Part shown: in pieces, positions 11,127-60,639 of the stretch
How positions within the stretch are numbered: position 1 is the first letter of the stretch
Layout of the letters: every line of letters begins with the position of its first letter
Source: Siphonodentalium dalli
Taxonomy: Eukaryota > Mollusca > Scaphopoda > Gadilida > Siphonodentaliidae
Assembly: GCA_032622095.1 (NCBI GenBank)
Contig: CP136067.1
Coordinates: 175,122,556 to 175,186,555 of the forward strand
Reading direction: 5' to 3'
DNA: 64,000 bases
Position numbers and translations under genes: made by a program
The notes under the pieces: generated by a model
The model's input: only the letters and a program-made list of their open reading frames with translations
The model's database searches: none
What the model was told of the DNA's origin: nothing

Positions 11127-13046
11127 CCAATAAATTTATCACTCGTCGTCCCTATAGGACAAGTTATGATTACTAATTCTTAATATGAATCCATATTCCC
11201 CCTGGGGCTTTCAACATGGGTCGGTGTCAATCATGTTGAACCTAATATGCCCTAATCTCATGTCAGCAGATCTCCATTCTCATTGGTCAATCTTAGCAGG
11301 CCAGCATGAAGTAACATTCACCGGCATTACCGAACCATTTACAACGGCACCACTATACTCTTCATCAATGTTTGGGGAGTAAGGGACTTGTTACATGAGC
11401 TGGGGCAACTCTGCTAGCCAGGACAACTCGGTTTGCCGGATGGCCCGGTCTAATGTGCTTGCTTACTGAACATATGATGTGCTGTTACATGAGACAGGTC
11501 AACTCTGCAAACCGAGATGTCGCGTCCCGCCTTGCCAGGACAACTCGTTTAGCCGGGAAAATTTAGCTCGCGTAACAGCGAGTCATTCGGGCTAACCGCG
11601 ATGAGAGTCCCATGGCGAACAACCCCTTCAGATGACGCTTCCTCCAGCAGGTTGATAATTAAGATGGATTATCTCTTTAAATAACAAATTTTAAATAGTT
11701 GCGTGGGTATAAAATAATAAATATGAACTGAAGACCCCTGTCCGGAAAGCTTCTATCAATTAATATTGATTTTATTTCGAATATTTAATTGGGACCATTT
11801 ATGTGTCTATTTTTAGAACAGACCATTCGGATGATAGCATATTGCGATATAGAGCTATGAGACCAGATATTCAGATTGTACATGCGAAATTATGCTTCTT
11901 TACATCCCCTGTAATCTTATTGCTCATGGAAATTAAATTGTTCTTCGTGTAAGAAGAGGATGATGAATAAATGCTAGTTTATGACCCTATGGTCAACGAT
12001 ACCCGGTATGCACAATCTAAAGTCACGAATGGTCCCATGCTGAACATGCGTGAATGACAATTGATTGTAATGATGGGACCGTTACATTGTAAAGGCAGCA
12101 CAATCTATCTTTCTTTAAAGGCGCTATGATAAAAATTATATCTCTGATTTACTTGGGAGTGGCAAATATGTATGTTGTACAGATTTTGGAACTTTGGAAT
12201 ATCCATTTTTGTTAGTCTGAGACTTACTCGTATCATAGACAAGTATGGCAAAATTTCCGTGCACATAGGGTCAAGCCAAACCACGTCAGTATGGACTAAT
12301 CAGATTATCTTCATTATGTGCACTCTTGACTCTTTTACACTATATATCTTATACCACATGTGCATGCAATTTCCATGTTCATATTGTCTTTTATTGTGTC
12401 TTATTTAAAGTGATTTTTTAATGTATCTGACGCAGATTAGAAAACACCGTGCACCTATCCGTGACGAAATATAAGCTCATAAGAATGAAAGATATAATTT
12501 TCTATATATTTTCTTCCATTTTGATTGCCAACATAAAATATAGTAACCTTTTCATACCTTAATAAGATTGCATTTTATATGCAATACTCCCAATAACTTA
12601 ATTCTTTAAAATATGTTCATCTCACACTAAAATATGGCCAGGACCCAATATTGAATTTTCAGGGATATTTCATAGCACATTCTGTTAGAAAATTTTTCTT
12701 TGGGATTGGAAGTAGCTGAGACCATGCAAACGCATACTACTGAGCAAATGATCATACGATATAATCATTTAAATCATAAGAGAATAGGTCCAATTTGCTA
12801 CCATTTCAAAACAATAGGAACGAATATAGGAGACATAAGTGATATTACATGTAAGTCCTATTTTTCAAATTCAGGTCGCCATTTTGGCAGACATCTTTAT
12901 AATATGGTGTAAATTTTCCCCAAAACAGTAGTATAATGTAATAACACCCAACTAGAATATACATTTGTACACATTTGATGTAATATGTCCAACAAAACAG
13001 ATTAAACCGACTTCGTTCATATTCTACACTATGGCGGTCATGTTGG
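11127..13046. other. Non-coding DNA shared by all three units
   Basis: It holds small open frames (11,185-11,382; 12,172-12,408; 12,700-12,912) that recur in the other units but are hit by frameshifts in unit 2 and show no domain. Two copies of a TTACATGAG...CAACTCTGC word lie near 11,390 and 11,487. TTAA at 12,559-12,562 is the empty site of the element found at 31,420. CATGTTGG at 13,039-13,046 is the left target duplication of the next element. Confidence 0.55.
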
Positions 13047-14119
13047 AGGGTATCACCCCCCCCCCCCTTTTCGGTACGCGGGATTCAGGGTGTTTTGAAG
13101 CCGTACGCGGGATTCATACCCCCGAATTAACTGGTATTCGGGTTCAAGCAAAACATCTTGGACGCAGGTTTTGATGGCGCAAAGTAATATTTTGTGCTAG
13201 TTATCTGTATGAATGGGTGGGTAGAATAGCTTCTTGGGCATATTCGACCACCATGCCATCATAAACATGCTAAAAATGCTTGACGCCAGTCTAGATGCTA
13301 AGATTTTGCGATTTTCTTGTTCAGATTAAACAAAAATTCGCACACCGGGCCGAACCATGGTCGGCCCGGTGTGTCCTTGTCTCTCCCCTGTGGCCAATAC
13401 AAAAATGATAATAAGTTTAACAATATTTGACTACATTTGGTCAAACTTGTGGTCATCAGTTGGAGAATTTTCCAACCTGAGGGGGAGTATGAGGTTTTAA
13501 ATTTCCAACACTATAGGAAAGTTTTAGTTGAGGCCAGTCTGGATGCTAGGATTTGCGATTTTCTTGTTCAAATTTCAAAATTTTCTCACACCGGCCGAAC
13601 AACGATGGTCAGCTCGGTGTGTCGTGGTCTGTTGCCCGTAGCCGTGTGCATTTGTATGGAGTTAGACCACTAGACGTTAGGATTTATGCAATGTTTCAGG
13701 TTAAAATATCTGAATTTTCTCATACCGGGAATATAGAACCATGGTTTATGAAGATATAGGATATTAGGCGTAAACACTGAGGTGCAAGGGGGGGGGGGGG
13801 GGGGTGCAAATGGAATTATGCAAAACTTGTGTTCGGTCTGATTGACTCAAGGAGGGGGGGGGGGTGCAGTTGGAATTTCCCAAGGTGGACACCCCAACGG
13901 AAACCCTCTAGCCACGTCCCCTGGTCATAAAGTATCATTAATGGTATCATAACGGCCTCATAACGCGACCGGCATCATAATGTGTAGACTCTATGTAACT
14001 TCTATGTATTATTTCTTAACATGTATTCAGGATTCACCCCCCAAAATTAACTCGTATTCAGGATTCACCCCCCAAAATTAACTGGTATTCAGGATTCAGG
14101 GGGGAGGGGGTGATACCCT
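13047..14119 (+). mobile_element. hAT-like non-autonomous transposon, 1,073 bp, with empty site in unit 2
   Basis: Terminal inverted repeats AGGGTATCACCCCC and GGGGGTGATACCCT flank the block. The 8-bp target duplication CATGTTGG stands on both sides (13,039-13,046 and 14,120-14,127). Unit 2 has a single CATGTTGG at 32,385-32,392 and no insertion. An 8-bp duplication with short TIRs fits the hAT superfamily. Internally there are G/C homopolymers, a 33-bp palindrome, a diverged second palindrome near 13,587 and two ~38-bp tandem copies of a GTATTCAGGATTCACCCCCC unit near 14,024-14,100. No transposase frame. Confidence 0.75.
13341..13373. repeat. 33-bp palindrome inside the hAT-like element
   Basis: CACACCGGGCCGA, centre ACCATGG, then TCGGCCCGGTGTG. 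The arms are perfect. Present again in the unit 3 copy near 58,135-58,167. Confidence 0.85.
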
Positions 14120-14127
14120 CATGTTGG

Positions 14128-14639
14128 ACACCGTCTTGAATTATAGGAAATGCTCAAGGGTAAGAACTCCACACCCACCTTGAAATTGATACACATACCA
14201 CCCAGAATCACAATCCATAGAGAAAAACTTTAACAGAGATTTTGTACTTCACCCATATTGCCCCTGGACTAAATGTAGTTCCATGCAGTTGTAATCAAAT
14301 TTCCACCCAAATTGTGGGAAGGAGCGAACCAATTTGTTCACCTTTGGTGGGGGAAGGTGTTTGTAACTCAAAGGTTCACTTAAAATGAGAATGGGCCAGT
14401 CGAAAAATCAAATATTCATGTATGGTTTATTAAATATTCATGTATGGTTTATTAAATATTCATATAATTCACCACATAGAGTTCTTGATAGTGCAGACCT
14501 GTCGTCGTTTTTACACGACCTCAATGCCGCAATTTCTTGTTATCTTGCATTATTGTTATGGTGGCTGACAAAATATAACGTCACATATACACCATTCACT
14601 AATCTAAATTATCCTTATATCTATGACTTGTTCATCATA
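14128..14639. other. Non-coding DNA downstream of ZNF-1
   Basis: Conserved in all three units. It includes two direct copies of TATTCATGTATGGTTTATTA near 14,411-14,460. It is the likely 3' untranslated or downstream region of the minus-strand ZNF-1 array. ATTAAA/AATAAA-like signals cannot be assigned with confidence. Confidence 0.4.
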
Positions 14640-15353
14640 CTATTTATCTGCATAGCATATATCACAGCGGTAAGGTTTATCTCCTGTGTGGATTTTCTTA
14701 TGTTTCACAAAGTTGCTCGATGTATAAAACGATTTCCCGCATATATCACAATGGTAAGGCTTATCTCCGGTGTGGATTCTCTTATGTCTTGTCAAGTTGC
14801 TCGATAGATTAAATGATTTCCCGCATATATCACAGTGGTAATGTTTATCTCCAGTGTGGATTCTCTTATGTTTCACCACGTCGCTCGATTGACTAAATGA
14901 TTTCCCGCATATATCACAATGGTAAGGCTTATCTCCAGTGTGGATTCTCTTATGTTTCACCACATCGCTCGATTGACTAAATGATTTCCCGCATATATCA
15001 CAATGGTAAGGCTTATCTCCGGTGTGGATTCTCTTATGTGTCACCAAAGTGCCTGATTGACTAAATGATTTCCCGCATATATCACAATGATAAGGCTTAT
15101 CTCCGGTGTGGATTCTCTTATGTCTCACCAAGCTGCTCGATAGATTAAATGATTTCCCGCATATATCACACCAAAAAGGCTTATCTCCAGTGTGAATTCT
15201 CTTATGTGTCGCCAAGCTGTCCGATCGGGTAAACGATTTCCCGCATACGTCACACTGATGCCGTTTATTATCTGTGTAGGCGGTCTCATGGACATTCAGG
15301 CTAGCATCTCCAATTGTGTGCCGGGAATTGTGACAGTCAGCTGTATATCTCAT
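14640..15353 (-). CDS. C2H2 zinc-finger array, ZNF-1 of unit 1 (7 fingers)
   Basis: The frame encodes 237 residues: a short leader with HETAYTDNKRHQC, then seven complete C2H2 fingers with period 28 residues joined by TGDKP linkers, then a half finger CDICYADK and a stop. Fingers are almost identical outside the helix (CDICGKSF...H-K-R-I-H). Helix tips differ: RSDSLAT, LSSSLVR, QSGTLVT, QSSDVVK twice, LSSNLTR, TSSNFVK. One linker is TGDKH instead of TGDKP. Such proteins bind DNA in the nucleus. The Met at 15,353 is only the first in frame: a splice acceptor at 15,341-15,344 (ATACAG) could join the array to the candidate exon at 15,516-15,678. No KRAB, SCAN or ZAD domain is seen. Confidence 0.75.
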   Translation of the reverse strand: MRYTADCHNSRHTIGDASLNVHETAYTDNKRHQCDVCGKSFTRSDSLATHKRIHTGDKPFWCDICGKSFNLSSSLVRHKRIHTGDKPYHCDICGKSFSQSGTLVTHKRIHTGDKPYHCDICGKSFSQSSDVVKHKRIHTGDKPYHCDICGKSFSQSSDVVKHKRIHTGDKHYHCDICGKSFNLSSNLTRHKRIHTGDKPYHCDICGKSFYTSSNFVKHKKIHTGDKPYRCDICYADK

Positions 15354-15515
15354 GAAGCGGCAGTCTATATATAGCGAGAATCTGATCTAACTATATCTGA
15401 ATTCCACAGTGTAACTGTAAATTATTTAGTTCGTGATATGGAGGGATCACGTATCAATCTACCGATTTTCAAGTCGAACAAAAGACGACGGAAATACCGT
15501 ATTATGTTGAACTAC

Positions 15516-15678
15516 CATGCGTCGCATTGTGGTTTTGTTTAGTAGAACCGTTCATAAAACGATAGATGTATACACAGCCTAAATGCGCATTAGTGTAAAA
15601 GACCGGCCGGTTTAGCGTCACAAACTCGACAGTAATTTCGTCGTATAACTCTTCACCCGATAGGTCTACTTTGGTGGA
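15516..15678 (-). other. Candidate upstream coding exon of ZNF-1, unit 1
   Basis: On the minus strand a long C tract followed by CAG gives a strong acceptor at 15,679-15,680. The 163-bp segment is open in one frame (around GEELYDEITVEF and MNGSTKQNHNATH) and ends CATG|GTAGTT. Splicing to the acceptor at 15,341 would keep the finger frame (phase 1), and the only Met is the one in MNGSTKQN. The donor is mediocre, and the peptide matches no domain I know. Unit 2 carries the same segment with two deletions; unit 3 lacks it. Confidence 0.35.
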
Positions 15679-15868
15679 CTGGGGGGGGGGGGGGTGACAT
15701 ACTCTTTTTATTATGGTATAGTCTATGATGCTTCTTGGCGGGAACACAGATCTCGAGAATGAATACACAATGTACATAACTTTGGTCCAAAGAAATGAAG
15801 TGATAATTGGTATATAATAAATACAAGTTATATTAATACATGCACAACATAATAAAGTTTATACTTAC

Positions 15869-16070
15869 CAATATATATATGCAGAAACGTGAAGAATGTG
15901 TCAGGTAACAATGAAAATAGCAACAGCAATAAAATAACGATGTGTTCAATTTGGTTTCTCTTTTAGTTCTTCCCTTGTCGATCTCGACACTTCTTCTCGA
16001 GCCGAGAGTTCCAGTTAACTTCCCGGTACAAACTTATCGCCGCTCCGGCTCTGGTCACTTCCGATTGACT
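15869..16070 (-). promoter_or_regulatory. Candidate promoter and untranslated first exon of ZNF-1, unit 1
   Basis: On the minus strand a strong splice donor TTG|GTAAGT ends a possible exon at 15,869, and unit 2 keeps it as TTG|GTGAGT. Upstream (higher coordinates) is a CpG-richer segment with CGGAAGTG at 16,056-16,063, an ETS/GABP-type core next to CAAT. There is no ATG in the last part of the presumed exon, consistent with a 5' UTR. Conservation of donor and ETS word in units 1 and 2 is the main support. Confidence 0.3.
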
Positions 16071-17917
16071 TATCTCCCATTGATCAGAAACCCAATTTCA
16101 CAACACTATTCCCTCTTTAAAATAATTAGAGTCCAGCGGAGGGAACAGCGATTCAGATCAAAATTCCCAATTGAAATAATAACAAGGTGTGCAGAGAAAA
16201 TCATTCCACAACAAAGAAAAAATACCATGCCTGTTCGGTGTACAATGTTTGCATGAACGAACAAAACATAGTTCTATGATTATACAAGAAAATGATTATA
16301 GAAAAACAAATACCGTACCAGGTCGGTTTACAAATAATTCGATGAAATGAATGAATGATTACCAAAAATCCACTCTTCAATAAGCTTGAGAATTTCAAAT
16401 TACTTTTGAACGGACTGACGTAGGTAACCGACGTAGATAACATTTGCCCTACATGTATTTCGAATATCTCATGAACATCGAACAATCTGTGTGAAGAGTG
16501 GAATGCCAGTATTTTGTTGACCCTTTATTTAAAACGAATTAACCAACATATTGAGTGAAATTATTGTGCAGTCACCACTGATACTCAAGTTATAGTTTTA
16601 AAATTAACTAACTTACAAGATCTAATAAATTTGTTCTAAAAATTAGCAATGATCCAGCGATAACCGTGGTTGCTCCAATCGCAGCAATGCAATTCAAATT
16701 TGAGGGCAACCTACTTGTTATGTGATGCTTTGAATGATGATAACAATAGATTATGTTCACGTTGCAACAATTGAGCAATGAAGCGATAATCATTGTTGCT
16801 GTACAGATAAAATTATGTTTCTTTTTTAGAAATCCAGTTCACGGGACAATCAAGCGACAATCGTTGCTCATCAGATAGAATTATCTGTTTCTTATTTAGA
16901 AATCCGGTTCGCAGGACAATTAGTGACCAATCATGCGATAATCGTGGTTGCTCTTCAGAGAAAAGTATATGTTTGTGTCTGTGTGAGCTGTATTTCATAA
17001 AATGTTATCTGATTTTTCTCCTTGAAATCATATTAGCAATATTCTGGCCAATTCGCCCGCTACATCGCCGACAATCGCAGGCAGTGTTTTCTTAATTTTG
17101 CTATGCCAAAATACCACATTCTGCGGCTCGTTAGACACCACTTCTAGTACATGCCTCGTCCAACTGCATGAGGTCCCTTCTAATTTCCATTGAAATTTGC
17201 ACAGGTAGTGCTCGGAACACGTGAAACCGATTTAATTTAAGTGTTAGGTCGTTTTTATGTGATCACATGTGGACCATTTGCTTAACTAGTAAACCCATTC
17301 AGGAGACAGTTAATGGATGGGAATCATTTGATCCACATAAGTCTGTGCTCTCGATCCATGAATGATAGTATATATGTGTAAATAGTATATATGTGTAAAT
17401 TTCTTGAAAGTTCAAAGCAGCTCAACTCATAATGATTATAAAATGACCAATCATTCATTGATTTAAATTGTAGTCAACTAACTCATATTATGAATTATTA
17501 TTCGATATGAAAACAAATTATAAAGAACACAGCCATATGAGAACTATTATTTCACAATAAATATTTCCTGAAAGCTTATGGATCTATAATAACTCATTCT
17601 GAGAATTTACATCAAATTAATTATAGATATTACAACACAACACAATGTCTTGTTCAGTTTATGTCTGTTTATTTATGTTCAATGTTTTATGTTCTACAAT
17701 TTTTGTCTATTGTTTTTGTTTAATGTTCTCTGGATATATCTTATATATCATATAATATAACTATCTATATTCTGATCTATTCATAGAAAATACACGACAG
17801 TCACTGATTAGAAACTTAAACAATTGCTAGTACAATAACTGACGAATAATTATACACCGGTATTGATAATAATTACTGAATAAGTTAGAATAACTACAAA
17901 TGAGTCAAATTAGCTTT

Positions 17918-17975
<58 letters not shown>

Positions 17976-18607
17976 CAGAAAGCGAATTATATTGGAGATA
18001 ACTTAATGACACAACATTAAGCCTTATAAAAGAATTCAACCATCGGGAATTGAAGATAACTCATTCTGAGATTTCTACATCAACTTAACAAAAGATCATA
18101 ACATTACGTAATGTCTTGCTCAGCTAATATTGTCTGATGTTATGTATACATCTGATACATCTCATATATTTCATTATATGTTGCATGCTATATATGTATA
18201 CCCTTAATGTTTGTCTGATCTGTGCATGTAATACTTGTAACATATGTATGTCTATTTTCCCCTTCATTACTTCATATGCATGTCTATCTTCGTCTATCCT
18301 CCCCTTCATTACTTCATATGCATGTCTATCTTCCATTTCTTATATACCGGTACGCCTAAGTAAAATGGGAATTTAGCGAAAAATACCCACCTCAATATTA
18401 ACTGATTGCGTACCGATAAGCATTTATTTTTTCAATACTTTACAAACCCTTGGAATATAAACAAAGCATTTCTCTCTCGCCCCCAACTTTAATACATATA
18501 TTTGTGACATCCCCCATTTGGCATATCTGAAAGAAAAAACAACTCTACATACCTTATATACCCCACCTCACCCCACCCCACTCACCCCACTCACCCTGTC
18601 CATTAAT
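16071..18607. other. Non-coding DNA between ZNF-1 and LINE-B
   Basis: Collinear with 41,690-44,322 in unit 2. It contains diverged copies of a GCGATAATCGTGGTTGCTC word (16,650-16,960) and a long TC tract. Small open frames near 18,140-18,370 are repeats of a CTTCATTACTTCATATGCATG word and are not genes. The start of LINE-B may lie somewhat upstream of 18,608, but it cannot be placed because both copies share the flank. Confidence 0.5.
17921..17973 (+). repeat. (TC)n microsatellite
   Basis: About 50 bases of uninterrupted CT dinucleotides. The homologous site in unit 2 (about 43,676-43,689) has only a few units. Confidence 0.95.
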
Positions 18608-20528
18608 ATTCTCTTGAAATACCCATGCTCCACTTGCAAAAACTCAGTGCGAAATAACCAAGATTCCTTATGCTGTGACATGTGTGATCAATGGATCCAT
18701 CTATATTGTTCTAAACTTTCAAATGCAGACTTCATAAAGCTTGTTGATGATGAAAAAACATAGTTTTGTCACCATTGTATTGCATCTATACTACCATTTA
18801 ATCATATAGAAGAAGAGGCACTGTTTCGGTTGGCTTTATTTGATATGAAACACGATTATGTTCATTCAAATCAACAAATATCACATCAAAAGATCCCTTA
18901 CTAATTAACCCATTCACCCTGAATGATGACTTTTGTAAGGAATCCCAACTGGATGACGATGACTATAACTTAGACCCAATAAATGCTGAAAACTCATCCA
19001 ATTATATCCTTTTTGAAGAATTCAATGATAAACTGAAACAGTTGAATAAAAATATATCATCTTCAATAATTCATTTCAACATACGTTCTTTAATGAGAAA
19101 TATAGATAAATTATCTACTTTCCTTCATGCTTGTAGACATATATTTGATATAATAGGCGTTACTGAAACATGAGTCCCCAATTGATCTGACAAAAATGGG
19201 GAGTTACAGTTTATATGAAAACCATAGGAATGACAGAAAGGGGAGTGGGGTTGGAATATATGCTAACGATAACATTAAAGCTCAAGTTCGAACAGACTTA
19301 TCTATATTCACGGAAAGCTTTGAAAGCTTATTTATTGAAATCCCTGATCATCAAATCAAGAACCAACCAGTAGGTTTTATATATCGATGCCCCAATTCTG
19401 ATGTCGACACATTTCTTGAAAAACTTGAAACAGTACTAACTCAAATACATAAAGAAAAAAGGGAATGCTTCCTGATGGGTGATTTCAACATAAAATAAAT
19501 AATGATAATACCAGTGGAAAGAACTTCTTAAACCTATTGAAGTCATTTATGTTTCTGCCAACAATAACTAAACCCACCAGAATTACAGAATTCAGTGCAA
19601 CCCTCATTGACAACATATTCTCCAACTGTCATCTCTCTTCATTTTACGCAGGTATTTTTGTGGAAGACATAACTGATTACTTGCCCATTTACCTTCTTTT
19701 GGATAATGGAGCCAAAAAAAGTAACCAATGTTTTTATTTACCAAAGAGACTATTCAAATATTTAAAAAAAAACATAAAAAAAAAATCATCAACCATATCT
19801 CAGTGGCTGACTGGAGCACAGTACTTTATAACCAGGACTGCAATGAAGCCTATAACATATTTCTTGATAAAATAATGAGCACCTATAATCTTAACTTCCC
19901 AAAAAAAGAGGAAGAAAGTCCAAATATCTAATAATCAAAATCCATGGATAACAACAAGTATAATGAACTCCATCAGAAGAGGGAATAAACTTTATAAAAT
20001 ATTCATAAAAGTCAGAACAATATATAATAATGAGCAATACAAGAAGTATAGAAATAAAGTAAACTCAATTATTCGAACTTCTAAGCAGCATTTTTATCAT
20101 AGTAAGTTCCAACAGTATGAAAGTAACATTAATGCTACATTGAAACTAATCAAAACATTCTCAACAAAAAATAGAGTAACAGCACCACAACAGAGTTCTT
20201 ATATGATAATAAATACATCAATGATAAGAAGGAAATTTCTGCCAAATTTTATGATTTTTTCACGAATATTGGACCAAACCTTGCTGCCAAGATAAGATCT
20301 TGTGAAAATCCGACAGACTACCTTAATCAGCCACACCCAACTGATGAATTTGAGATCCTTGATTTATTAAAAAGTATCAATTCTAAAAAGGCGGCAGGTA
20401 TTGATGAACTGAAATGTTCTATTCTGAAGACATGTTCCGAATTTATTATTAAACCCATTACACATATCTGTAATCTCTCCCTATCTAATGGCATATTCCC
20501 AGACCTCGTGAAGGTAGCTAAAGTTATG
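18608..20528 (+). pseudogene. LINE-B, unit 1, 5' part: PHD-like finger and endonuclease, decayed
   Basis: The coding region opens with a PHD-like zinc cluster: CSTC, then LCCDMCDQW, HLYC, and FCHHC after an in-frame TAG (18,761-18,763) where unit 2 has TGG (Trp). An AP-type endonuclease follows: HFNIRSL near 19,076, GDFNI near 19,483, and the SDH-type motif as TDYLP with His changed to Tyr (19,678-19,680). Then comes the first third of a reverse transcriptase. It would nick the target and prime cDNA synthesis. The presumed start codon is ATT at 18,608 (ATG in unit 2), with further stops and frameshifts. Sequence is lost at 20,529, where an unrelated block begins. Family resemblance is to CR1/jockey-like LINEs. 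Confidence 0.75.
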
Positions 20529-21010
20529 TTTGTCATATGTAGGCGCTGGGTGGGGGGGGGGGGGGGGGGGGAGATACTCAGGCCTGGGTATCTCCCCCAC
20601 CCCAAATTCTTACTCTAATCAAATTTTGCTCATATAAAGTTAATTTCTCGCCATTTCATAACTATATAAAGCAAATTAAGCAATAATATCATACGTTTAA
20701 TTTTTGTCATATGTAGGTGCTGGGTGGGGGGGGGGGGGAGATACTCTATAAAATTTTGCTCATATAAAGTTAATTTCTCGCCATTTCATGACTATATAAA
20801 GCAAATTAAACGATAGAATCATAAGGTAATATGTTGACATATTTATGCTATTATTGGGTTAAGTTAAACTTCAAAATAACCCCCAAAAAATTAAATTTAT
20901 AGTTTTCTCGGCATTTCTTACCATAATAATATAAAATAAGTGAGGGAAAAAAAATGTACGAGTGGGGGGGAAGATACCCAGGGTGGGGGGGAAGATACCC
21001 AGGGGGAGAT
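20529..21010. repeat. G-tract repeats with GAGATAC / GTATCTC inverted words
   Basis: A unit starting TTTGTCATATGTAGG(C/T)GCTGGGT with a long G run occurs at 20,529 and again near 20,703. Each copy is followed by the same TTTTGCTCATATAAAG segment. The first copy has an inverted partner (GTATCTCCCCCACCCC) forming a hairpin around 20,550-20,605. Two GGGGGGAAGATACCCAGGG words lie at about 20,965-21,005. Confidence 0.7.
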
Positions 21011-21360
21011 ATCGTGTTACACCGGTTTTGCCCCAACTGATACATAATGTAATGCTATCGAGAGTCGCACCGACTAAACCAGAAGGAAATGTTTTGTGAG
21101 TCGCCCTGGAGGGAATACTATTATGTGGTGAATGTATGATAATGGAATACCCCACCTATTCAGGGAGCAAATATTACATTTGAAATTTTGATTAGCAAAT
21201 AACCTCATAATAACATAATTAGAATGCATTGTTCTGAAATCATATAAAATTCATACCAAATTGCATAGCTATTATCTAAATTTGGGTAGCAAATTGCGAT
21301 GCGATACCAGTTAATTTTCTCCATGCACCTATTCAACCTAACTTTAATAATAATAATAAT

Positions 21361-21665: not shown

Positions 21666-21723
21666 TTAATAATAAATGTGAATTTGGCCTCCCATATAAC
21701 CGGTCATGAATACCCCGTACGTA

Positions 21724-21936: not shown

Positions 21937-22129
21937 TATTACTTAGTAGTCATAGCTGGTAATGGGCCAACCTCGAATCGATTCATCACTACCATTCCAT
22001 ATAGTAATGATAGTAGTATGTATATAATATTCAGGGTTGTGGTGCATTTAACAGACTGTATATTATATCTGGTTCTATTTTATTGTACTAAGAACACGAA
22101 CATTCTGTTGCATGAGATTATCTAAATTG

Positions 22130-25340: not shown

Positions 25341-25354
25341 TTCACAGACTACTA

Positions 25355-49685: not shown

Positions 49686-51356
49686 AGATTAATTAAGCCG
49701 ATACTGTTATATGGTAGCGAATCATGGGGCGTTGAAATAACCACTAAAAATCACGACCGCCTGCCATGTGAAAAGTTACACTTAAAATATGTAATTAAGT
49801 TAATGTCATGGTCGGACTGTAATCTTCGCCGCAGTGCTGCGTTGGAACAACCGATGGCATCCGTTAAGAAATCAATCTTTAAAACGGCAGAATCACTGGG
49901 GTGGAATATTGCAGACCTCCAAAACACTGGTCCCGTACTGGGTCAATTCAAAAGAAATCTTATTGAAGATTATCTATTATATATTTTGGAAGATCTGTGT
50001 GTCTGTGTGTGTGTGTGTGTGATCGCGATGGACTCGAAAACGACCGAGCCGATTTCGATGAAACTTGGTATGTGGGGGTATTTTCGGCCGGGGGTGGCAT
50101 GGGCCTGTCAATTTTCAGATCCGAGGTCAACTTTTCACGTGCCGCGGTCAAATCTGTTTTTACGCTGTGTTACGGGACTTTCATTTGAGTTCGGTGATTA
50201 CAAATCGATTCGAAACAGCGCGGATAATAAAATGCCAGTCATAATAATGACACTGTGAGAATCTTTCGTGTTTCCTCTTTCCAACGATATATAATGCGTA
50301 TGTATCCGTTTTAGTTATCTGCCTCGATTATCAAGAAGAAATGGTACTATCTTCCATCGGGATAAAAACAATGCGTAACTTCTATGACGTCGTTAGAGTT
50401 CATAACGTTAGATCACGTTAACGCTTAACCGGCCGATGCATTTGACTGTTTCAGACGTCTTGGCGATATCTCGGGCACCGATGGTAATTTATCTTTACGT
50501 TGAAACTTGATAATTAATGAGCGTGTGTATATGAGGCGCGTTTATATACTTGAGTGGAAATCAAATCGGGTTAAAAGGTCAAATCGGGTAAAACCGGATG
50601 GATTTCGACGGGTACTTTTGTCGGGTACTTTTGTTCGGGCAGTGTTTTGGACGGGTCAAATCGTGACCCCACTTGACCTTGGCCTTCAAAATAGACAATT
50701 CAAGGTCAAACCCCGGACGAAGTCGGGTCACCTTCTAGTTATATATATTTTAGACAGAGTCCCACTGACGAATGTTCATAAACGGGAAGTAATAAGTTAC
50801 GAACATACCGACTTTTCAAACTTAAGTACGAAATAGAACCTTATCTTCTTCCCCCAACAGCAATAGAAAATAGAATCGTTTTTACTAGACTACGAATAAG
50901 TAATCATACATTGGCTATTGAAAAGGGACGCCACACACAACCGCCGACGGCAGTGGAACAAAGGTTTTGTATATTTTGTTCCGATAATGCTATTGAAGAC
51001 GAAAAACATTTTCTTTTAGAGTGCAGCGCTTACCGCACACAACGTCTCGAGCTCACAAACCTTATGAAGACACAGTTCTCAGACTTTGAAAGCATGTCAA
51101 AATCTTAACCAACAATGTGTCAAATACATGCACTTCAATTTGTCATATGATCCGAAGATTATTCTCCGCACGTGATGAGCAACTTATCATAAATCCATGA
51201 ACAAATACAGAATAGATGATCCATTGCACATTCAGCTTGACCTTATATTAATATCATTTATTATACTGTTCAATACACAATGTACAATTATATGTTATTA
51301 TGTATATGCATACTGTCCTTATAAGGATGTTTTTGCCAATTAAACTTATCTCTCTC
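49686..51356 (+). mobile_element. LINE-C, 5'-truncated, at the unit 2/3 junction
   Basis: Starts in RT thumb sequence (RLIKPILLYGSESWG, CEKLHLKYVIKL), is interrupted by a Helitron-like element, and continues from about 50,745 (RVPLTNVHKREV...) to a C-terminal knuckle CIFCSDNAIEDEKHFLLEC and stop near 51,106, then a 3' UTR. It sits between ATTCAAT (49,679-49,685) and TTCAAT (51,357-51,362), a 6-7 bp duplication. The unit 1/2 junction carries one copy of this target (29,138-29,144). Confidence 0.8.
49973..50738 (+). mobile_element. Helitron-like non-autonomous element 3, inside LINE-C
   Basis: A|TCTATTATATATTTTGG at 49,972/49,973, CTAG|T at 50,735-50,739, and a hairpin CCCGGACGAAGTCGGG at 50,712-50,727. 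Contains a (TG)n tract, one left and one right portion of the element 2 core repeat (TGACCTTGG...TCAAGGTCA), and about 350 bp of unrelated sequence in the middle (about 50,120-50,570). It splits the LINE-C coding region. Confidence 0.75.
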
Positions 51357-51362
51357 TTCAAT

Positions 51363-52809
51363 CCAATAAATTTATAACTCGTCATCCCTAGGACAAGTTA
51401 TGATTACTAATTCTTAATATGAATCCATATTCCCCCTGGGGCTTTCAACATGGGTCGGTGTCAATCATGTTGAACCTAATATGCCCTAATCTCATGTCAG
51501 CAGATCTCCATTCTCATTGGTCAATCTTAGCAGGCCAGCATGAAGTAACATTCACCGGCATTACCGAACCATTTACAACGGCACCACTATACTCTTCATC
51601 AATGTTTGGGGAGTAAGGGACTTGTTACATGAGCTGGGGCAACTCTGCTAGCCATGACAACTCGGTTTGCCGGATGGCCCGGTCTAATGTGCTTGCTTAC
51701 TGAACAAAAGATGTGATGTTACATGAGACGGGTCAACTCTGCAAACCGAGATGTCTCGTCCCGCCTTGCCAGGACAACTCGTTTAGCCGGGAAAACTTAG
51801 CTCACGTAACAGCGAGTAATTCGGGCTAACCGTGATGAGAGTCCCATGGGCGAACAACCCCTTCAGATAAACTTATATCCAAGCCTATTCATGTGTATCT
51901 TCAAGATTGTTCCACCGTGTCCCGATTTTCTCTGCAAATATTACTCACAAGCAACAATTCTCTTGGACATACTCCGCAATAATCGTCACACCTTGATAAT
52001 ATTTCACTGAATAGTCAAAATTGTCACACTCAATAACTGAAAGTTACCCAATATTCAACCAACTGTGTATGACGCTTCCTCCAGCAGGTTGATAATTAAA
52101 GATGGATTATCTCTTTAAATAACAAATTTTAAATAGTTGCGTGGGTATAAAATAATAAATATGAACTGAAGACCCCTGTCCGGAAAAGCTTCTTTCAATT
52201 AATATTGGGCTGTTCCTATGGCTACGCACCGAAAGTCAAATGTCCCAGCTTGATTGTTTGTATTGTTTTGTTACATAGTTATAAACGATAATGAGTATAA
52301 TTAACGTTTATTTGTGACAAAATTGTACAATAAAATTTCTGGTCTCTGTTAACAGTAACCACTATTGTTCGTTAGCTATACAACTACACATATTTAGACT
52401 AGAAAATATTCGAAATAAAATTAATATTAATCGACACAAGCATTTCTGGACAGGAGTCTTCGATTCAGATATAATATTTTATACCCCGGTAACTATATAA
52501 AACATGTTTACAAAGAGATAATCCACCTTTAACCAGTTGCCAATATTTTGAATATACTTTAATTTGGGATCGGATCATTATATGTGGTTTATTCAGCGAA
52601 ACAATTAACGTTTTCCAACTGTCGCTGAAATCTCATTGTATTCAGGGTCTTGTTCTATGAGACCAGATATTCAGATTGTACATGCGAAATTATTCTTCTT
52701 TACATCCCCTGTAATCTTATTGCTCATGGAAATTAAATTGTTCTTCGTGTAAGAAGAGGATAATGAATAAATGCTAGTTTAGGACCCTATGGTCAACGAT
52801 ACCCGGTAT
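51363..52809. other. Non-coding DNA, start of unit 3
   Basis: Homologous to the starts of units 1 and 2, with a mosaic of the deletions seen in each. ACGATACCCGGTAT at 52,796-52,809 is the left target duplication of LINE-A. Confidence 0.55.
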
Positions 52810-52838
52810 TTTTGTTTTTTTGTTTTTTTGTTTAAACA
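52810..52838 (-). repeat. LINE-A 3' tail of CAAAAAAA units
   Basis: On the plus strand TTTTG followed by repeated TTTTTTTG. The tail abuts the target duplication directly, marking the 3' end of the element. Confidence 0.9.
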
Positions 52839-53262
52839 TATTTTATTTGTTCATAAATTAAATTAGTTTATGACAAAAGGGATTGGAGGACAAGTGCTAA
52901 ATCACTTAGAATACCCTCCTCTCCCTAGTATGATACACTGACAAATTTTATGACACTAAAGACGAACAAAACACAAGGTATATTATATACATACATATAA
53001 TAAAAAATATAAGTAAATAAACAGAATGGCGATTGCGGAGGAGAATTGGAGGGTCGGTTTACAGTGGAGAGATGGGATGAGTGTGAGTATGCTTCATCAA
53101 CCCATCGGTGATCATTCCCTTGCAACAAGTAAAAATACGATAGTACAGGCATATATAAATTATTGAGTGCATAACTGGGATATATTGAACATAGGAAACA
53201 AGGTACAAACTTAGAATATTATATTATAAGTAGATTTGGTGTAGAATGGCATGGTCAAAGTG

Positions 53263-55185
53263 TTAGGTTCTCTCAAAACGGCCGGAATCTCTAATATACG
53301 AGTGTACAGCCTTAAAGATATCACTATTCTCAGTATAAGTTAGTTCAGGTTTCCCATAAAGAAGTATGTCTACAGAGTTAATATTATGTTGCATAAGATT
53401 ATTATTGAGTTTTTGCCGAGATTCGGCATAATGGTTACATTCAAAGAAAAAATGGTTAGCATTTTCATCCCGGAAGCCACACGAGCATGTTGCGGAATCT
53501 GAGATATGATTACGTAATTTATCGGATTGTAGGGCACTACATTTACATCGAAGTTGCGTGTGAATAATATTATAATAACGACTCCCATTTGTGAAATACA
53601 AAGGTGGTTTCAGCCTTGTCCCCGCGTAGTGCATATGTTTCAATTGCTTCACGAATTCATCATGGGCAAGATTGCGAATAGTTAATTTAATGGAGTTCCA
53701 TTCCTTTGTACAGGCAGGGATAAAAGTGGATTTTAACCTTGCAGAGTCACAGCGAATGATAATAAAATCAGAAGCATATTTTGATTCTCGATCGGTCCTG
53801 TCTCTGAAACGTTCGGGCAGGATTGTGCTTAAGTAACGAGGTGCATTATTATTTATTATCTTGTGAAGGGTGGATAACCGTTTAACGGTTCTTCTGTCCT
53901 CTAGACTATCCCAGCCTATCTCAGTCATTAATCTGACATCTGATACAGAACGAGTGCAACCCGTCACGATTCTGGCTGCATCTAACTGAATATCATTAAG
54001 GTTTTTAAGGAGGTAATTCGGAGCTCCAAACCACACTGGGCTTGCATATTCGAGAAGCGGTCTCACGTATGTCAAGTACATTGTTTCTAAAGTTTGTCTG
54101 CTTAGTATGCATTTAAGTTTCCTTATTTGGGACAATCTCGCATTAGCACGTTTACACGTGTTGTCAATACACATATTCCATTTGAGATCACTCTGCAGGT
54201 CAACGCCTAAATGCTTGTGATTTTCGGTGTATTCCAGGACTTCACCATTGAATTTAACCACCGGCCTAGTATTTTCAGGGAAACTTCCAAAAAACATTAG
54301 ATTGGTTTTTGATGGATTGAATTTCACCATCCATTGCCTTGACCAATTGCTCAGCTTAATCATATCATTATTCAGTGAAATTTCAAGTGTGTTTAGGTCA
54401 GAACTACTCTTCATTAGACAGGTGTCATCTGCGTAGAGACACGTTTTGGATTCCATACTATCGGCTATATCGTTAATGTAGAGCAAAAATAGGAGAGGAC
54501 CGATAACGGACCCCTGGGGCACTCCAGATTCTAAACAATCATACTTTGAGATGCAGGCGTTGACCCTAACCCTTTGTTGGCGATCGCTAAGATAACTCTT
54601 AAACCATAAAAGAAGTTTTCCTTTAATCCCATATTTTTCCATTTTGTGTAAAAGTCTGTCATGCCAAACTTTATCGAACGCTTTGGACACATCACAGAAA
54701 ACCGCACAAGTGTTACATCCTTCATCTAGTGCTTCTGCTATACTATGAACTATTTCAATAAGCTGATATTCGGTACTATGTTTAGGAAGGAACCCAGACT
54801 GATAATCATACAACAAGTTATTTTCTTGTAAATGCTGAAGTAATTTATTATGGATAATTTTTTCTAATATTTTACCGGGAACGCTCAGAAGTGAAACTGG
54901 CCTATAATTATTTGGATCTTTTTGGTCACCTTTTTTGAATAGAGGTATAACATCCGCTTTTTTCCATTCATCTGGGAACTGACAAAGGTCTATCGATTTC
55001 TGAAATAATATACTAAGTGGTTTACATACAGTAGCATGTGTTTCTTTAAGCATGCGATTACTAATACCATCTGACCCATAGGCTTTTTTCGTTGGTAGAT
55101 CTTTCAGAATTTGAGAAATTTGTGATTCACTGATCGGTATTTCAGTGATAACTTCATCTGTTCGTGCAACAAAATCGGCAAACAT
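53263..55185 (-). CDS. LINE-A reverse transcriptase ORF, 640 aa
   Basis: Synthesises element cDNA at the nicked target. RT motifs in order: KKADVIPLFKKGD and NNYRPVSLL (about residues 75-105), SGFLPKHST, CDVSKAFDKVWH, SGVPQGSVIGPLLFLLYIND, then the catalytic YADDT box (about residues 265-275), VKFNPSKTNLMFFG and HLGVDLQSDLKW. Near the C-terminus a CCHC-like knuckle, CSCGFRDENANHFFFEC, is typical of jockey/CR1 LINEs. The Met at 55,185 is not the native start: the frame begins after a frameshift near 55,195-55,205 that separates it from the endonuclease. The stop at 53,263-53,265 is followed by the 3' UTR. All palm motifs are intact. Confidence 0.85.
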   Translation of the reverse strand: MFADFVARTDEVITEIPISESQISQILKDLPTKKAYGSDGISNRMLKETHATVCKPLSILFQKSIDLCQFPDEWKKADVIPLFKKGDQKDPNNYRPVSLLSVPGKILEKIIHNKLLQHLQENNLLYDYQSGFLPKHSTEYQLIEIVHSIAEALDEGCNTCAVFCDVSKAFDKVWHDRLLHKMEKYGIKGKLLLWFKSYLSDRQQRVRVNACISKYDCLESGVPQGSVIGPLLFLLYINDIADSMESKTCLYADDTCLMKSSSDLNTLEISLNNDMIKLSNWSRQWMVKFNPSKTNLMFFGSFPENTRPVVKFNGEVLEYTENHKHLGVDLQSDLKWNMCIDNTCKRANARLSQIRKLKCILSRQTLETMYLTYVRPLLEYASPVWFGAPNYLLKNLNDIQLDAARIVTGCTRSVSDVRLMTEIGWDSLEDRRTVKRLSTLHKIINNNAPRYLSTILPERFRDRTDRESKYASDFIIIRCDSARLKSTFIPACTKEWNSIKLTIRNLAHDEFVKQLKHMHYAGTRLKPPLYFTNGSRYYNIIHTQLRCKCSALQSDKLRNHISDSATCSCGFRDENANHFFFECNHYAESRQKLNNNLMQHNINSVDILLYGKPELTYTENSDIFKAVHSYIRDSGRFERT

Positions 55186-56627
55186 TTCGCTTTCATTCCT
55201 AATGAACTATTGGCAACAAAAATACTATTTAAAATTTCAGCTTTATCTTTATCATCGCAGAACATTTTGTTTTTATATGAGAGAGGCGGGATTCCTTGGT
55301 TAGAATTGTTACCCATAAATGTTTTAACAACATGCCAAAACTGTTTTGGGTTATTATTCATAACAAGGGATTCATCCAAGTGAGTCATATACTCATTTTT
55401 TGCGTGTTTCTTGGCATTATTTACTTGATTTCGAGCTTTCTTGTATTTCGACCACGTGAAACTCGTATTACATTTTAGAGCTTTTCTTCTATAGCGATCG
55501 CGTTGGCGGATTAGTCTTCTGACTGTGCTATCAAACCATGGTTTATTATTTCTACGTACCAATATATCTCGGCGTGGTGTGAAAGATTCGGCCATCTCCA
55601 GAAACATGTATCTGAAATGCTCAACAGATTTGTTGATGTTAAAACGGTTTACTTCATTATTAAGACAAGCGGACCAGTTAGTTTCTTTTATTACTCTATT
55701 TAAACCTATAAAGTCGGCAGAAGAATAGTTCCACACTATTCTTTTGTAGGATTGTGTCACACGGGGTGTCGTTTTTAGTTCAACAGACGTGGCATAGTGA
55801 TCAGATACTTCAAGGTCAACAACGGAGGGGTTCATCGCTATTAACGCTTCAGAGATAATAATAGGGTCTAAGAGCGTTTGTGACTTTGACGTTACTCGTG
55901 TTGGTTCTTTGATTACGTTAGACATGCCGACATATTTATTTATTATGGACTGTAGTGGGTTATCGCTTATCAACATATTACAATTCAAGTCACCAACGAC
56001 AACAACTGATGGGTTAATATCTAATGCTTCTCCAATTTTGTCATCAAGTAGTTCCCAGAAGTTATTTAAACATTCCCTATCAGACCTATAGGTAACACAT
56101 AGTAAAAACTTGTCTACAGATCCAACTTCAAACCAAAGGATGTCATCATTAAACTGCAAACCTGACATTTCTCTGTATGGAATTTTATCTGAAAAGTATA
56201 CTATGATTCCACCGCCATACATATTTCGATCTTTACGTACTGGGTGTTGGAAACCTGAGATAAGCAAGTTTTCATTTGGATAATTATCGTCAAGATGAGA
56301 TTCAGTAAAGCATAGAATATCTTAATCATCGATAATATCTGAAATCTTTTGAATTTTGTTTCTTATGCTTCTTACGTTGCAATGAATAATAGAAATTGAA
56401 GTGGTAACCGGGGCGTCTAATTGACCTGGGTTCGGGTGTATATCCCCAGCGAGAGCAAAAAGAGTGAACGCCAGAAATGCTACTATCACATTATGAAAAG
56501 CTAGTAAACGCAAACGAATTGGCTTATGTGTAGTATGTTTATACATGTTACATCGGCATGTTATGTGTATATATATGCCTTGAAATATTCCAATTGTTAG
56601 CCTATATTGAGCCACGCTAACTCCCAT
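55104..56627 (-). pseudogene. LINE-A N-terminal region and AP endonuclease, one nonsense codon
   Basis: Met at 56,627 starts a 101-codon segment with a hydrophobic stretch (about residues 46-60) followed by AGDIHPNPGQ, resembling the 2A ribosome-skipping consensus but ending in Gln rather than Pro. After SIIHCNVRSIRNKI a TAA at 56,322-56,324 interrupts. The same frame goes on with the endonuclease: FTESHL, VVVGDLNCNML, DLEVSDHYATSVEL, then NKPWFDSTVRRLI. GDLN and SDH are the expected active-site motifs. The frame is lost near 55,200 where the RT frame takes over; the last 30 codons to 55,104 are out of register. Confidence 0.85.
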
Positions 56628-56846
56628 GACTAGTTGTACAGAAAGTCAGTAAGGCGCATGATAGGCTAACAGGAAAACATAGATGATGTAGGCTGCTCAA
56701 GAACTTTGACCGACGGGTAGTGAAGCATATATGTTTACATGAATGTTTCAGATAAGATGTGTAAGATTTAGACAAAAAAAAGAGAGAAAATAACATTAAG
56801 TATGTAAAGTTATCCATTTTATAATGGAAATTACGATACCCGGTAT

Positions 56847-57842
56847 GCACAATCTAAAGTCATGAATGGTCCCATGCTGAACATGCGTGAGTGACAATTG
56901 ATTGTAATGATAGGACCGTTACATTGTAAAGGCAGCACAATCTATCTTTCTTTAAAGGGGCTATGATAAAATTATATCTCTGATCTACTTGGGAGCAAAT
57001 ATGTATGTTGTACAGATTTTGGAACTTTGGAATATCCATTTTTGTTAGTCTGAGACTTTCTCGTATCATAGACAAGTATGGCAAAATTTCCGTGCACATA
57101 GGGTCAAGCCCAACAACGTCAGTATGAACTAATCAGATTATCTTCATTATGTGCACTCTTGACTCTTTTACACTATATATCTTATACCACATGTGCATGC
57201 AATTTCCATGTTCATATTGTCTTTGATTGTGTCTTATTTAAAGTGATTTTTTAATGTATCTGACGCAGATTAGAAAACACCGTGCACCTATCCGTGACGA
57301 AATATAAGCTCATTTTGATTGCCAACATAAAATATAGTAACCTTTTCATACCTTAATAAGATTGCCTTTTATATGCAATACTCCCAATAACTTAATTCTT
57401 TAAAATATGTTCATCTCACACTAAAATATGGCCAGGACCCAATATTGAATTTTCAGGGAAATTTCATAGCACATTCTGTTAGAAAATTTTTCTTTGGGAT
57501 TGGAAGTAGCTGAGACCATGCAAACGCATACTACTGAGCAAATGATCATACGATATAATGATTTAAATCATAAGAGAATAGGTCCAATTTGCTACCATTT
57601 CAAAACAATAGGAACGAATATAGGAGACATAAGTGATATTACATGTAAGTCCTATTTTTCAAATTCAGGTCGCCATTTTGGCAGACATCTTTATAATATG
57701 GTGTAAATTTTTTCCCCAAAACAGTAGTATAATGTAATAACATCCAACTAGAATATACATTTGTACACATTTGATGTAATATGTCCAACAAAACAGATTA
57801 AACCGACTTCGTTCATATTCTACACTATGGCGGTCATGTTGG
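56847..57842. other. Non-coding DNA, unit 3
   Basis: Homologous to 12,010-13,046. TTAA at 57,353-57,356 is the empty site of the unit 2 MITE. The 57,494-57,706 frame matches 12,700-12,912 at all but one residue, but unit 2 has it frameshifted, so coding is unlikely. Confidence 0.55.
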
Positions 57843-58912
57843 AGGGTATCACCCCCCCCCCCTTTTCGGTACGCGGGATTCAGGGTGTTTTGAAGCCGTA
57901 CGCGGGATTCATACCCCCGAATTAACTGGTATTCGGGTTCAAGCAAAACATCTTGGACGCAGGTTTTGATGGCGCAAAGTAATATTTTGTGCTAGTTATC
58001 TGTATGAATGGGTGGGTAGAATAGCTTCTTGGGCATATTCGACCACCATGCCATCATAAACATGCTAAAAATGCTTGACGCCAGTCTAGATGCTAAGATT
58101 TTGCGATTTTCTTGTTCAGATTAAAAAAAATTCGCACACCGGGCCGAACCATGGTCGGCCCGGTGTGTCCTTGTCTCTCCCCTGTGGCCAATACAAAAAT
58201 GATAATAAGTTTAACAATATTTGACTACATTTGGTCAAACTTGTGGTCATCAGTTGGAGAATTTTCCAACCTGAGGGGGAGTATGAGGTTTGAAATTTCC
58301 AACACTATAGGAAAGTTTTAGTTGAGGCCAGTCTGGATGCTAGGATTTGCGATTTTCTTGTTCAAATTTCAAAATTTTCTCACACCGGCCGAACAACGAT
58401 GGTCAGCTCGGTGTGTCGTGGTCTCTTGCCCGTAGCCGTGTGCATTTGTATGGAGTTAGACCACTAGATGTTAGGATTTATGCAATGTTTCAGGTTAAAA
58501 TATCTGAATTTTCTCATACCGGGAATATAGAACCATGGTTTATGAAGATATAGGATATTAGGCGTAAACACTGAGGTGCAAGGGGGGGGGGGGGTGCAAA
58601 TGGAATTATGCAAAACTTGTGTTCGGTCTGATTCTGACTCAAGGAGGGGGGGGGGGGGTGCAGTTGGAATTTCCCAAGGTGGACACCCCAACAGAAACCC
58701 TCTAGCCACGTCCCTGATCATAAAGTATCATTAATGGTATCATAACGGCCTCATAACGCGACCGGCATCATAATGTGTAGACTCTATGTAACTTCTATGT
58801 ATTATTTCTTAACATGTATTCAGGATTCACCCCCCAAAATTAACTCGTATTCAGGATTCACCCCCCAAAATTAACTGGTATTCAGGATTCAGGGGGGAGG
58901 GGGTGATACCTT
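57843..58912 (+). mobile_element. hAT-like non-autonomous transposon, unit 3 copy, 1,070 bp
   Basis: Same element and same target as 13,047-14,119, with CATGTTGG at 57,835-57,842 and 58,913-58,920. The right end has one change (ATACCTT). Differences from the unit 1 copy are mainly homopolymer lengths, consistent with a shared insertion inherited through duplication. Confidence 0.8.
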
Positions 58913-58920
58913 CATGTTGG

Positions 58921-59416
58921 ACACCGTCTTGAATTATAGGAAATGCTCAAGGGTAAGAACTCCACACCCACCTTGAAATTGATACACATACCACCCAGAA
59001 TCACAATCCATAGAGAAAAACTTTAACAGAGATTTTGTACTTCACCCATATTGCTCCTGGACTAAATGTAGTTCCATGCAGTTGTAATCAAATTTCCACC
59101 CAAATTGTGGGAAGGAGCGAACCAATTTGTTCACCTTTGGTGGGGGAAGGTGTTTGTAACTCAAAGGTTCACCTAAAATGAGAATGGGCCAGTCGAAAAA
59201 TCAAATATTCATGTATGGTTTATTACATATTCATATAAATCATCACATAGAGTTCTTGATAGTGCAGACCTGTCGTCATTTTTACACGACCTCAATGCCG
59301 CAATTTCTTGTTATCTTGCATTATTGTTATGGTGGCTGACAAAATATAACGTCGCATATACACCATTCACTAATCTAAATTATCCTTATACATGTATCTA
59401 TGACTTGTTCATCATA
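58921..59416. other. Non-coding DNA downstream of ZNF-1, unit 3
   Basis: Homologous to 14,128-14,639, with one TATTCATGTATGG copy fewer. No supported gene. Confidence 0.5.
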
Positions 59417-60214
59417 CTATTTATCTGCATAGCATATATCACAGCGGTAAGGTTTATCTCCTGTGTGGATTTTCTTATGTTTCACAAAGTTGCTCGATGT
59501 ATAAAACGATTTCCCGCATATATCACAATGGTAAGGCTTATCTCCAGTGTGGATTCTCTTATGTTTCACCACGTCGCTCGATTGACTAAATGATTTCCCG
59601 CATATATCACAATGGTAAGGCTTATCTCCAGTGTGGATTCTCTTATGTTTCACCACGTCGCTCGATTGACTAAATGATTTCCCGCATATATCACAATGGT
59701 AAGGCTTATCTCCGGTGTGGATTCGCTTATGTTTCGCCAAAGTGGCTGATTGACTAAATGATTTCCCGCATATATCACAATGATAAGGCTTATCTCCGGT
59801 GTGGATTCTCTTATGTGTCACCACTTCGCTCGATTGACTAAATGATTTCCCGCATATATCACAATGATAAGGCTTATCTCCGGTGTGGATTCTCTTATGT
59901 GTCACCAAGCTGCTCGATCGATTAAATGATTTCCCGCATATATCACAATGGTAAGGCTTATCTCCGGTGTGGATTCTCTTATGTCTCACCAAGCTGCTCG
60001 ATAGATTAAATGATTTCCCGCATATATCACACCAAAAAGGCTTATCTCCAGTGTGAATTCTCTTATGTGTCGCCAAGCTGTCCGATCGGGTAAACGATTT
60101 CCCGCATACGTCACACTGATGCCGTTTATTATCTGTGTAGGCGGTCTCATGGACATTCAGGCTAGCATCTCCAATTGTGTGCCGGGAATTGTGACAGTCA
60201 GCTGTATATCTCAT
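59417..60214 (-). CDS. C2H2 zinc-finger array, ZNF-1 of unit 3 (8 fingers)
   Basis: 265 codons: the same leader as unit 1, eight complete fingers of 28 residues with TGDKP linkers, and the terminal half finger CDICYADK. Helix tips: RSDSLAT, LSSSLVR, RSSSLVT, QSSEVVT, QSATLAK, QSSDVVK twice, TSSNFVK. It shares the first two and the last fingers with unit 1 but differs in the middle, where one finger has been gained or exchanged. The acceptor ATACAG is preserved at about 60,202-60,205, but the candidate exon 2 and promoter are cut off at 60,387, so expression would need a new promoter. Confidence 0.7.
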   Translation of the reverse strand: MRYTADCHNSRHTIGDASLNVHETAYTDNKRHQCDVCGKSFTRSDSLATHKRIHTGDKPFWCDICGKSFNLSSSLVRHKRIHTGDKPYHCDICGKSFNRSSSLVTHKRIHTGDKPYHCDICGKSFSQSSEVVTHKRIHTGDKPYHCDICGKSFSQSATLAKHKRIHTGDKPYHCDICGKSFSQSSDVVKHKRIHTGDKPYHCDICGKSFSQSSDVVKHKRIHTGDKPYHCDICGKSFYTSSNFVKHKKIHTGDKPYRCDICYADK

Positions 60215-60639
60215 GAAGCGGCAGTCTATATATAGCGAGAATCTGATCTAACTATATCTGAATTCCACAGTGTAACTGTAAATTATTTAGTTCGTGATAT
60301 GGAGAGATCACGTATCAATCTACCGATTTTCAAGTCGAACAAAGGACGACGGAAACACCGTCTTATGTTGAACTACCATGCGTCGCAGGTAACACCTAAT
60401 AGTCAGCGAGCTATTGTATACACACATGAATATTAATATATTCTAATATAGTTTAAGGCGGGGTCAAGTGCACGTGGTTGCGTGTTGCGGGGCTGTCATA
60501 CTGTGTGATTGGCATGTTGAGACGTGGCATAAGGACCAGTTGGACCACATTTAACATAGAATCATTAATTATATAGCTCGCAAACATATGACTCTGAGAA
60601 ATTGTGAATTTCCTGTCTCCCGGTGAACTTAACGTTGTA

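Follow-up and report, generated by a model that had tools for sequence, protein, structure and literature searches.

Mosaic structure of a tandem zinc-finger gene array in the scaphopod Siphonodentalium dalli

Large lineage-specific tandem families of C2H2 zinc-finger genes occur in Metazoa, molluscs and cephalopods included (PMC10547256, PMC12513265), and the KRAB zinc-finger cluster on mouse Chr4 has grown rapidly by large segmental duplications (PMC11952569, a preprint); here and below, these sources and PMC5363842 are cited for the parts of their text that were available. We describe a stretch of 64,000 nucleotides, hereafter the window, from the scaphopod mollusc Siphonodentalium dalli (C7:175122556-175186555, contig CP136067.1 of GCA_032622095.1, a genome of 2.23 Gb in 9 contigs). 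It holds three units, U1, U2 and U3, of a ~450-kb array whose units carry two C2H2 zinc-finger loci, ZNF-1 and ZNF-2, and a captured long interspersed nuclear element (LINE). The array is a mosaic, which very probably arose by block duplication together with non-allelic exchange or conversion, mostly between units that are not neighbours.

In the mouse Chr4 cluster, blocks of 3-7 genes are repeated at different places, some duplications are partial, and mobile elements are copied together with the blocks (PMC11952569). The same holds here, where similar multi-gene blocks recur at non-adjacent places of the array. Unlike that cluster, the units stand head to tail with a captured LINE, 9 of 19 carry one truncating finger insertion or a derivative of it, and KRAB is absent from the families shown for three zinc-finger open reading frames (ORFs), two of these lists being the best 25 rows and separate exons not having been searched. 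The mouse KZFP-related units resemble the present ones in that fingers are duplicated and deleted as the arrays diversify, non-adjacent units carry highly homologous finger signatures, and pseudogenes are present; their signatures may lie on opposite strands, whereas here a single orientation is found, and both the zinc-finger family and the genome are different (PMC5363842). Cephalopod C2H2 genes are co-localised on few chromosomes, and the matches listed here fall mostly on C3 and in the C7 array. The available text of PMC10547256 and PMC12513265 concerns gene numbers, correlation with transposable elements, expression and co-localisation, not mosaic structure at the level of the unit. Block duplication between non-neighbours combined with finger shuffling is a pattern already known from mouse zinc-finger clusters, and this locus is a new instance of it.

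The array and the closest relatives of its units

A whole-genome search with unit segments placed the array at C7:174.978-175.430 Mb, where ~19 units (labelled z and a-r; z and h are incomplete or were read in part) follow one another in one orientation. Homology starts within segment s6 at the left limit, C7:174977907. The right limit is at least C7:175429651, and the extra partial copy there is more diverged than the units, being 90-94% identical to U1. Spacing between units is mostly 11-29 kb, rising to 51 kb (e-f) and 66 kb (h-i) where large extra DNA is present. Besides the window, 296.9 kb of the array and its ends and 3 kb of C3 were read; with the window included, this covers 360.9 kb of the 453.5 kb from 174976400 to 175429899, with 0 N.

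Each unit is ordered as a flank (s1-s6), ZNF-1 (-), s7-s8a, the captured LINE (s8b-s11), ZNF-2 (+) and s12-s14, so that ZNF-1 and ZNF-2 are divergently oriented. A first-pass annotation of the window had described three collinear head-to-tail units of 18-20 kb. The repeats are genuine: they are long collinear direct repeats of ~87-99% identity with their segment order kept. They lie, however, inside the larger array, as units f, g and h of about 19, and U3 is only 9.1 kb long in the window, its homology ending at 60387, 140 bases into s7.

Painting (500-base windows, same strand, matches of at least 300 bases) shows where the closest relatives of the three units lie. The right three quarters of U1, from ~15.25 to 29.25 kb, are closest to b, k or p in most windows; against unit b, 116 kb away, the right part is 98.8-99.2% identical in three blocks (~0.6-1.1% different by segment comparison). 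For U2, from ~29.75 to 49.25 kb, most windows with a match point to unit o, at a distance of 189 kb, as the closest; a and j equal o at 30.5-32.5 kb, and no outside match exists at 34.75-40.5 kb. By segments, U2 and o differ by 0-0.9% in s2b, s3, s6 and s8b-s13 and by 0.6% in s5, the s8a of o being too short to compare. The left part of U3 is closest to q, p, r and o, and the part after its LINE mostly to f. In U1 the nearest relative changes mainly at ZNF-1 and in U2 near the unit junctions, and not in the captured LINE, a statement that concerns U1 and U2 only.

Across the array, 46 block pairs of at least 1.5 kb and at least 97.5% identity were found, most of them between non-neighbours. 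Offsets among them are 259-260 kb for a-j, 253-255 kb for b-k, 115-116 kb for b-f and 278-281 kb for c-n; g and o are 99.4% identical over 6.8 kb at an offset of 189 kb. Eleven segments were compared between units, leaving out copies that covered <75% or were <=80% identical, as well as s1, s2, s4, s7 and s14. The background between units is 2-4%, from which families at 0-1% stand out. In the distance tests, which left out the second (primed) copies inside units c and n, 88 of 1,051 pair-segments differ by <=1%, and 4 of these 88 join neighbours; the nearest partner is the adjacent unit in 7 of 156 comparisons, where 16.8 are expected. For most pairs of segments, the distance matrices of the same units show little or no correlation, as expected of mosaic units. 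A piece of C3 taken as outgroup holds s6 and remnants of s2/s2b with no ZNF-1 match, and could not root the units.

The first-pass annotation had grouped U1 and U3 against U2, with non-coding divergence as the test, and by that test the grouping stands. Over 2,345 shared columns, the divergence is 1.49% between U1 and U3 (d13), 2.43% between U1 and U2 (d12) and 2.56% between U2 and U3 (d23), with d13 below d12 in 99.3% of 2,000 block bootstraps. This affinity is mainly a patch of ~3 kb around ZNF-1 (12563-15526, s5-s7). There, d12, d13 and d23 are 3.51, 0.83 and 3.10% in s5, 2.37, 1.38 and 1.78% in s6, and 4.29, 2.86 and 5.71% in s7 (140 columns). In s2, s3 and s4, U1-U2 and U1-U3 are about equal, and s1 gives 2.13 vs 1.42%. 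Within the patch, two U1 windows (14000-14500) are closest to unit m.

Other shared features had been named in support of the grouping. U1 and U3 do have the same N-terminal variant of ZNF-1, and they do share their left edge (11007-11633 / 51243-51868, 97.6%), but the latter is one of two junction types found array-wide. U2 and U3 share, as was also said, a segment that U1 lost, namely s2b (449 bp). The proposed origin was a ~40-kb A-B copy or gene conversion. Because the right part of U1 has b as its nearest relative and U2 has o over most of its length, the A-B copy does not fit; patchwise conversion or exchange does.

Shuffling and decay of the zinc-finger genes

The arrays are C2H2 in nature, with matches to zf-C2H2 and zf-H2C2_2 and 7-residue linkers (TGDKPYH), as in tandem C2H2 families. 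ZNF-1 is present in 19 of 19 units, with 7-25 fingers (counts vary slightly by method). ZNF-2 and most copies of ZNF-1 have decayed. The frame of ZNF-1 is open to its usual end, CYADK (CFADK in b), in 4 of 19 units: b and m also keep the usual start, and f and h have isoleucine in place of the MGDAS methionine. Twelve further units are open for 7-22 fingers and then break, while those of i, k and o break after 4, 1 and 3 fingers. ZNF-2 is broken in all 14 units where its array was found. Outside the array, the listed relatives of ZNF-1 (150 scored of 13,045 candidates) are found for the most part at 10-63 Mb of C3, and many of those have long open frames.

Fingers have been shuffled: their order differs between units with nearly identical flanks (g/o, n/q and a/j, mostly <1% flank difference). 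The same 4-bp insertion, which brings a stop and a frameshift, is found in ZNF-1 of z (three times), d, e, i, n, p and q, that is in 7 of 19 units; c (twice) and l have an apparently derived form. It sits in fingers with different contact residues. Because these residues differ and z has three copies, the insertion has probably moved between fingers.

The finger set comprises 269 of 278 candidates of 84 bp, 9 being dropped as far from the consensus. In the 180 distinct ZNF-1 fingers, codon positions 1, 2 and 3 have 102, 88 and 258 deviations outside the helix, and the helix contact residues vary freely on a conserved scaffold; the motif used to pick fingers covers the first four codons and holds those nearly fixed. 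The third-position excess and the free contacts indicate that the fingers derive from genes once under selection. The pattern reflects this history and may not apply to the present copies. By analogy, the ancestral function was probably sequence-specific DNA binding against mobile elements, the binding and silencing role of other expanded C2H2 families (PMC10547256).

Formation of the array

We propose that the array would have grown by duplication of single units and of multi-unit blocks, and would later have been reshuffled by non-allelic exchange or gene conversion between mostly non-neighbouring units, with finger repeats also recombining on their own. As the mechanism we infer non-allelic homologous recombination or conversion. 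As a result, a unit is a mosaic in which the left part, the finger array and the right part can each have a different closest relative, and the likeness of U1 and U3 comes mainly from the one shared patch. The order of inserts suggests duplication of larger blocks that were later overwritten: units b, f, k and p, which carry a 5.3-kb insert, are each directly preceded by a unit with a 490-bp insert (4 of 4, permutation p=0.0016). The right parts of e and h were outside the data of this test, and a later search (40 scored of 3,665 candidates) lists no copy of the insert middle in either.

Several points weigh against this account. About 93 kb of the array region lie outside the 360.9 kb read, and the shortage of adjacent nearest partners is not significant (p=0.108). 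Pairs eight and nine units apart are enriched for closeness (15/69, p=0.045, and 15/62, p=0.027), but weakly and with no correction for the 17 offsets tested. Some segments agree in their distances after all (s5-s8a 0.80, s2b-s10 0.61, s10-s11 0.60). The ratio of nonsynonymous to synonymous differences, pN/pS, is 0.64 (95% 0.32-1.37) at the ZNF-1 N-terminus in 17 units (g and n left out), and 1.52 at the last ZNF-1 finger in 17 units without z, which supersedes the 2.05 obtained when z, partly out of frame, is included; on these ratios, purifying selection after amplification is not demonstrated.

The weak register of 8-9 units bears on other explanations too. It is unlikely that the locus is a gene-bearing satellite, in which exchange would run over hundreds of kb in a preferred register of this length while the truncating finger spreads as a null allele. 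We also regard as quite improbable an assembly or haplotype artefact, in which the two haplotypes of a shorter array would have been assembled one after the other (z-h and i-r). Such a join would explain the register of z-i, a-j, b-k and g-o; close pairs are most frequent at offsets 8 and 9 and come in order there, and z and i are identical in s13, the only z segment compared. Against it, no partner closer than 1.5% exists for c in 5/9 segments, d in 4/6, e in 4/6, i in 8/10 and l in 9/11, and the right parts of b, f, k and p are similar to one another to roughly the same degree. Nor do the listed matches to the left flank of z (40 scored of 906) include a copy near i, which is a weak test with a high-copy element, and no N interrupts the sequence read.

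Tandem duplication of one unit at a time by unequal crossing-over, with no distant exchange, is very improbable. It would give the head-to-tail order, the diverged edge copy and the local 2.3-kb duplication in c, but neighbours are no closer than distant units: mean divergence is 2.73% at offset 1 and 2.24-2.76% at offsets 2-14, and none of the 11 segments shows similarity falling off with distance (permutation p 0.118-0.902). Scarcely credible, finally, is an A-B higher-order repeat, in which a two-unit block of ~40 kb was copied and U3 is the next A: d13 below d12 and d23, the left edge and a terminal inverted repeat (TIR) element with one target duplication common to U1 and U3, and the insert order, which hints at a larger block of 4-5 units, speak for it, but divergence, offset and painting data already largely refute it, since the U1-U3 affinity is mainly confined to ~3 kb, the right part of U1 is nearest b, k or p and most of U2 nearest o, pairs two units apart, where this A-B-A' order predicts closeness, are not enriched (3/108 pair-segments at <=1%), and the markers of other units do not alternate.

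Some candidate descriptions and values were set aside. A periodicity of 4-5 units is not claimed; the insert order points to it, the divergence offsets do not. Nor is the array a higher-order repeat in the satellite sense: near-identity is limited to patches, and closeness is not enriched at offsets 2-5 and only weakly at 8-9, the insert order being the single result that speaks for such a repeat. Whole-tract divergences (U1-b 2.25%, right part of U2-o 1.11%, part of U1-U2 6.00%) were not used; lenient gap costs probably forced the alignment through finger arrays and repeats.

Inserts, junctions and significance

Features of the window are collected in Table 1. Some inserts are private to a unit and others shared. 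The LINE inserted in U3 makes up ~4 kb of its 9.1 kb, is flanked by a 14-bp target duplication (52796-52809 / 56833-56846) and was not seen in the other units read. The TIR element of U1 and U3 differs by 0.47% between the two and has an identical 10-bp target duplication in both. Within the array it was found in these units only (40 scored of 6,465 candidates); dispersed copies elsewhere in the genome are ~94-97% alike. The same target duplication, the small difference and the lack of another listed array copy point to one insertion, inherited or copied between U1 and U3. A hAT-like element, given with no coordinates, had been said to group these units. hAT elements make an 8-bp target site duplication, and the only element found private to U1 and U3 has a perfect 10-bp one, so that the assignment did not hold, by duplication length only and with no transposase search made.

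The middle part of the 5.3-kb insert has copies of 93-98% elsewhere in the genome; its array copies are listed only in f, b and p, k being without that part (40 scored of 3,665 candidates). For s10 of the captured LINE, listed copies elsewhere are 87-94% (mostly 93%) like U1, and array copies 94-99%.

Table 1 Positions of features in the window (position 1 is its first letter).
Feature	Position	Strand	Remark
U1 (unit f)	11007..29320	+	window self-comparison
U2 (unit g)	29321..51242	+	self-comparison; includes the 49690-51242 junction stretch before the next unit
U3 (unit h)	51243..60387	+	self-comparison; left half only
ZNF-1 of U1	14640..15386	-	7 C2H2 fingers, open to the terminal CYADK; MGDAS methionine is isoleucine
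ZNF-1 of U2	32899..34953	-	20 fingers, in-frame stop 33691-33693 (12 + 8 fingers)
ZNF-1 of U3	59417..60247	-	8 fingers, N-terminal variant as in U1
ZNF-2 of U1	27168..28237	+	C2H2 array with frame breaks, pseudogene
ZNF-2 of U2	48262..48936	+	broken C2H2 array, pseudogene
Captured LINE (s8b-s11) in U1	17356..27167	+	reverse transcriptase remnants, split by the 5.3-kb insert
Captured LINE in U2	42980..48259	+	
5.3-kb insert of U1	20528..25891		common to b, k (part missing) and p; absent from U2
TIR element in U1, 1,071 bp	13048..14118		target duplication 13038-13047 / 14119-14128
TIR element in U3	57844..58911		target duplication 57834-57843 / 58912-58921
s2b in U2	30192..30640	+	missing from U1
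s2b in U3	52206..52654	+	
~490-bp insert of U2	31413..31908		also in units a, e, j and o (in e by length and shared repeat match only)
U2 stretch with a 195-bp tandem repeat	34954..40727		no same-strand match of at least 300 bases elsewhere in the 360.9 kb compared
LINE insertion in U3	52810..56832	-	endonuclease and reverse transcriptase ORFs

Counting the internal copies in c and n, 19 junctions were found, 7 without s14 and 12 with it, and the two types do not alternate along the array. Units c and n, about 280 kb apart, share a rearranged junction of 2.3 kb. Inverted extra copies of s2-s2b lie at C7:175008306-175008829, 175015687-175016219 and 175404761-175405295; because of them, s2-s2b is probably itself a mobile element. 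Segment s8 is locally triplicated between units h and i, with 3 copies 3.7-3.8 kb apart (C7:175221541-175231371).

Around the units of the window, a 168-bp satellite of 7.1 copies (62019-63201) lies just right of the truncated U3, and a 122-bp tandem repeat (5535-6434) has relatives beside units k and p. Two ORFs occupy 498-1790; the second (1107-1790) matches PNMA and Retrotrans_gag just under the curated cut-offs, as a gag-like remnant. Scans of the window with Rfam (gathering scores) and for tRNA gave no match.

The array is a clear animal-genome case of the process reported for mouse KRAB zinc-finger clusters. Should the family turn out to be without KRAB, that process would not depend on KRAB. 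The truncating finger shared among units is a natural marker for measuring exchange between them.

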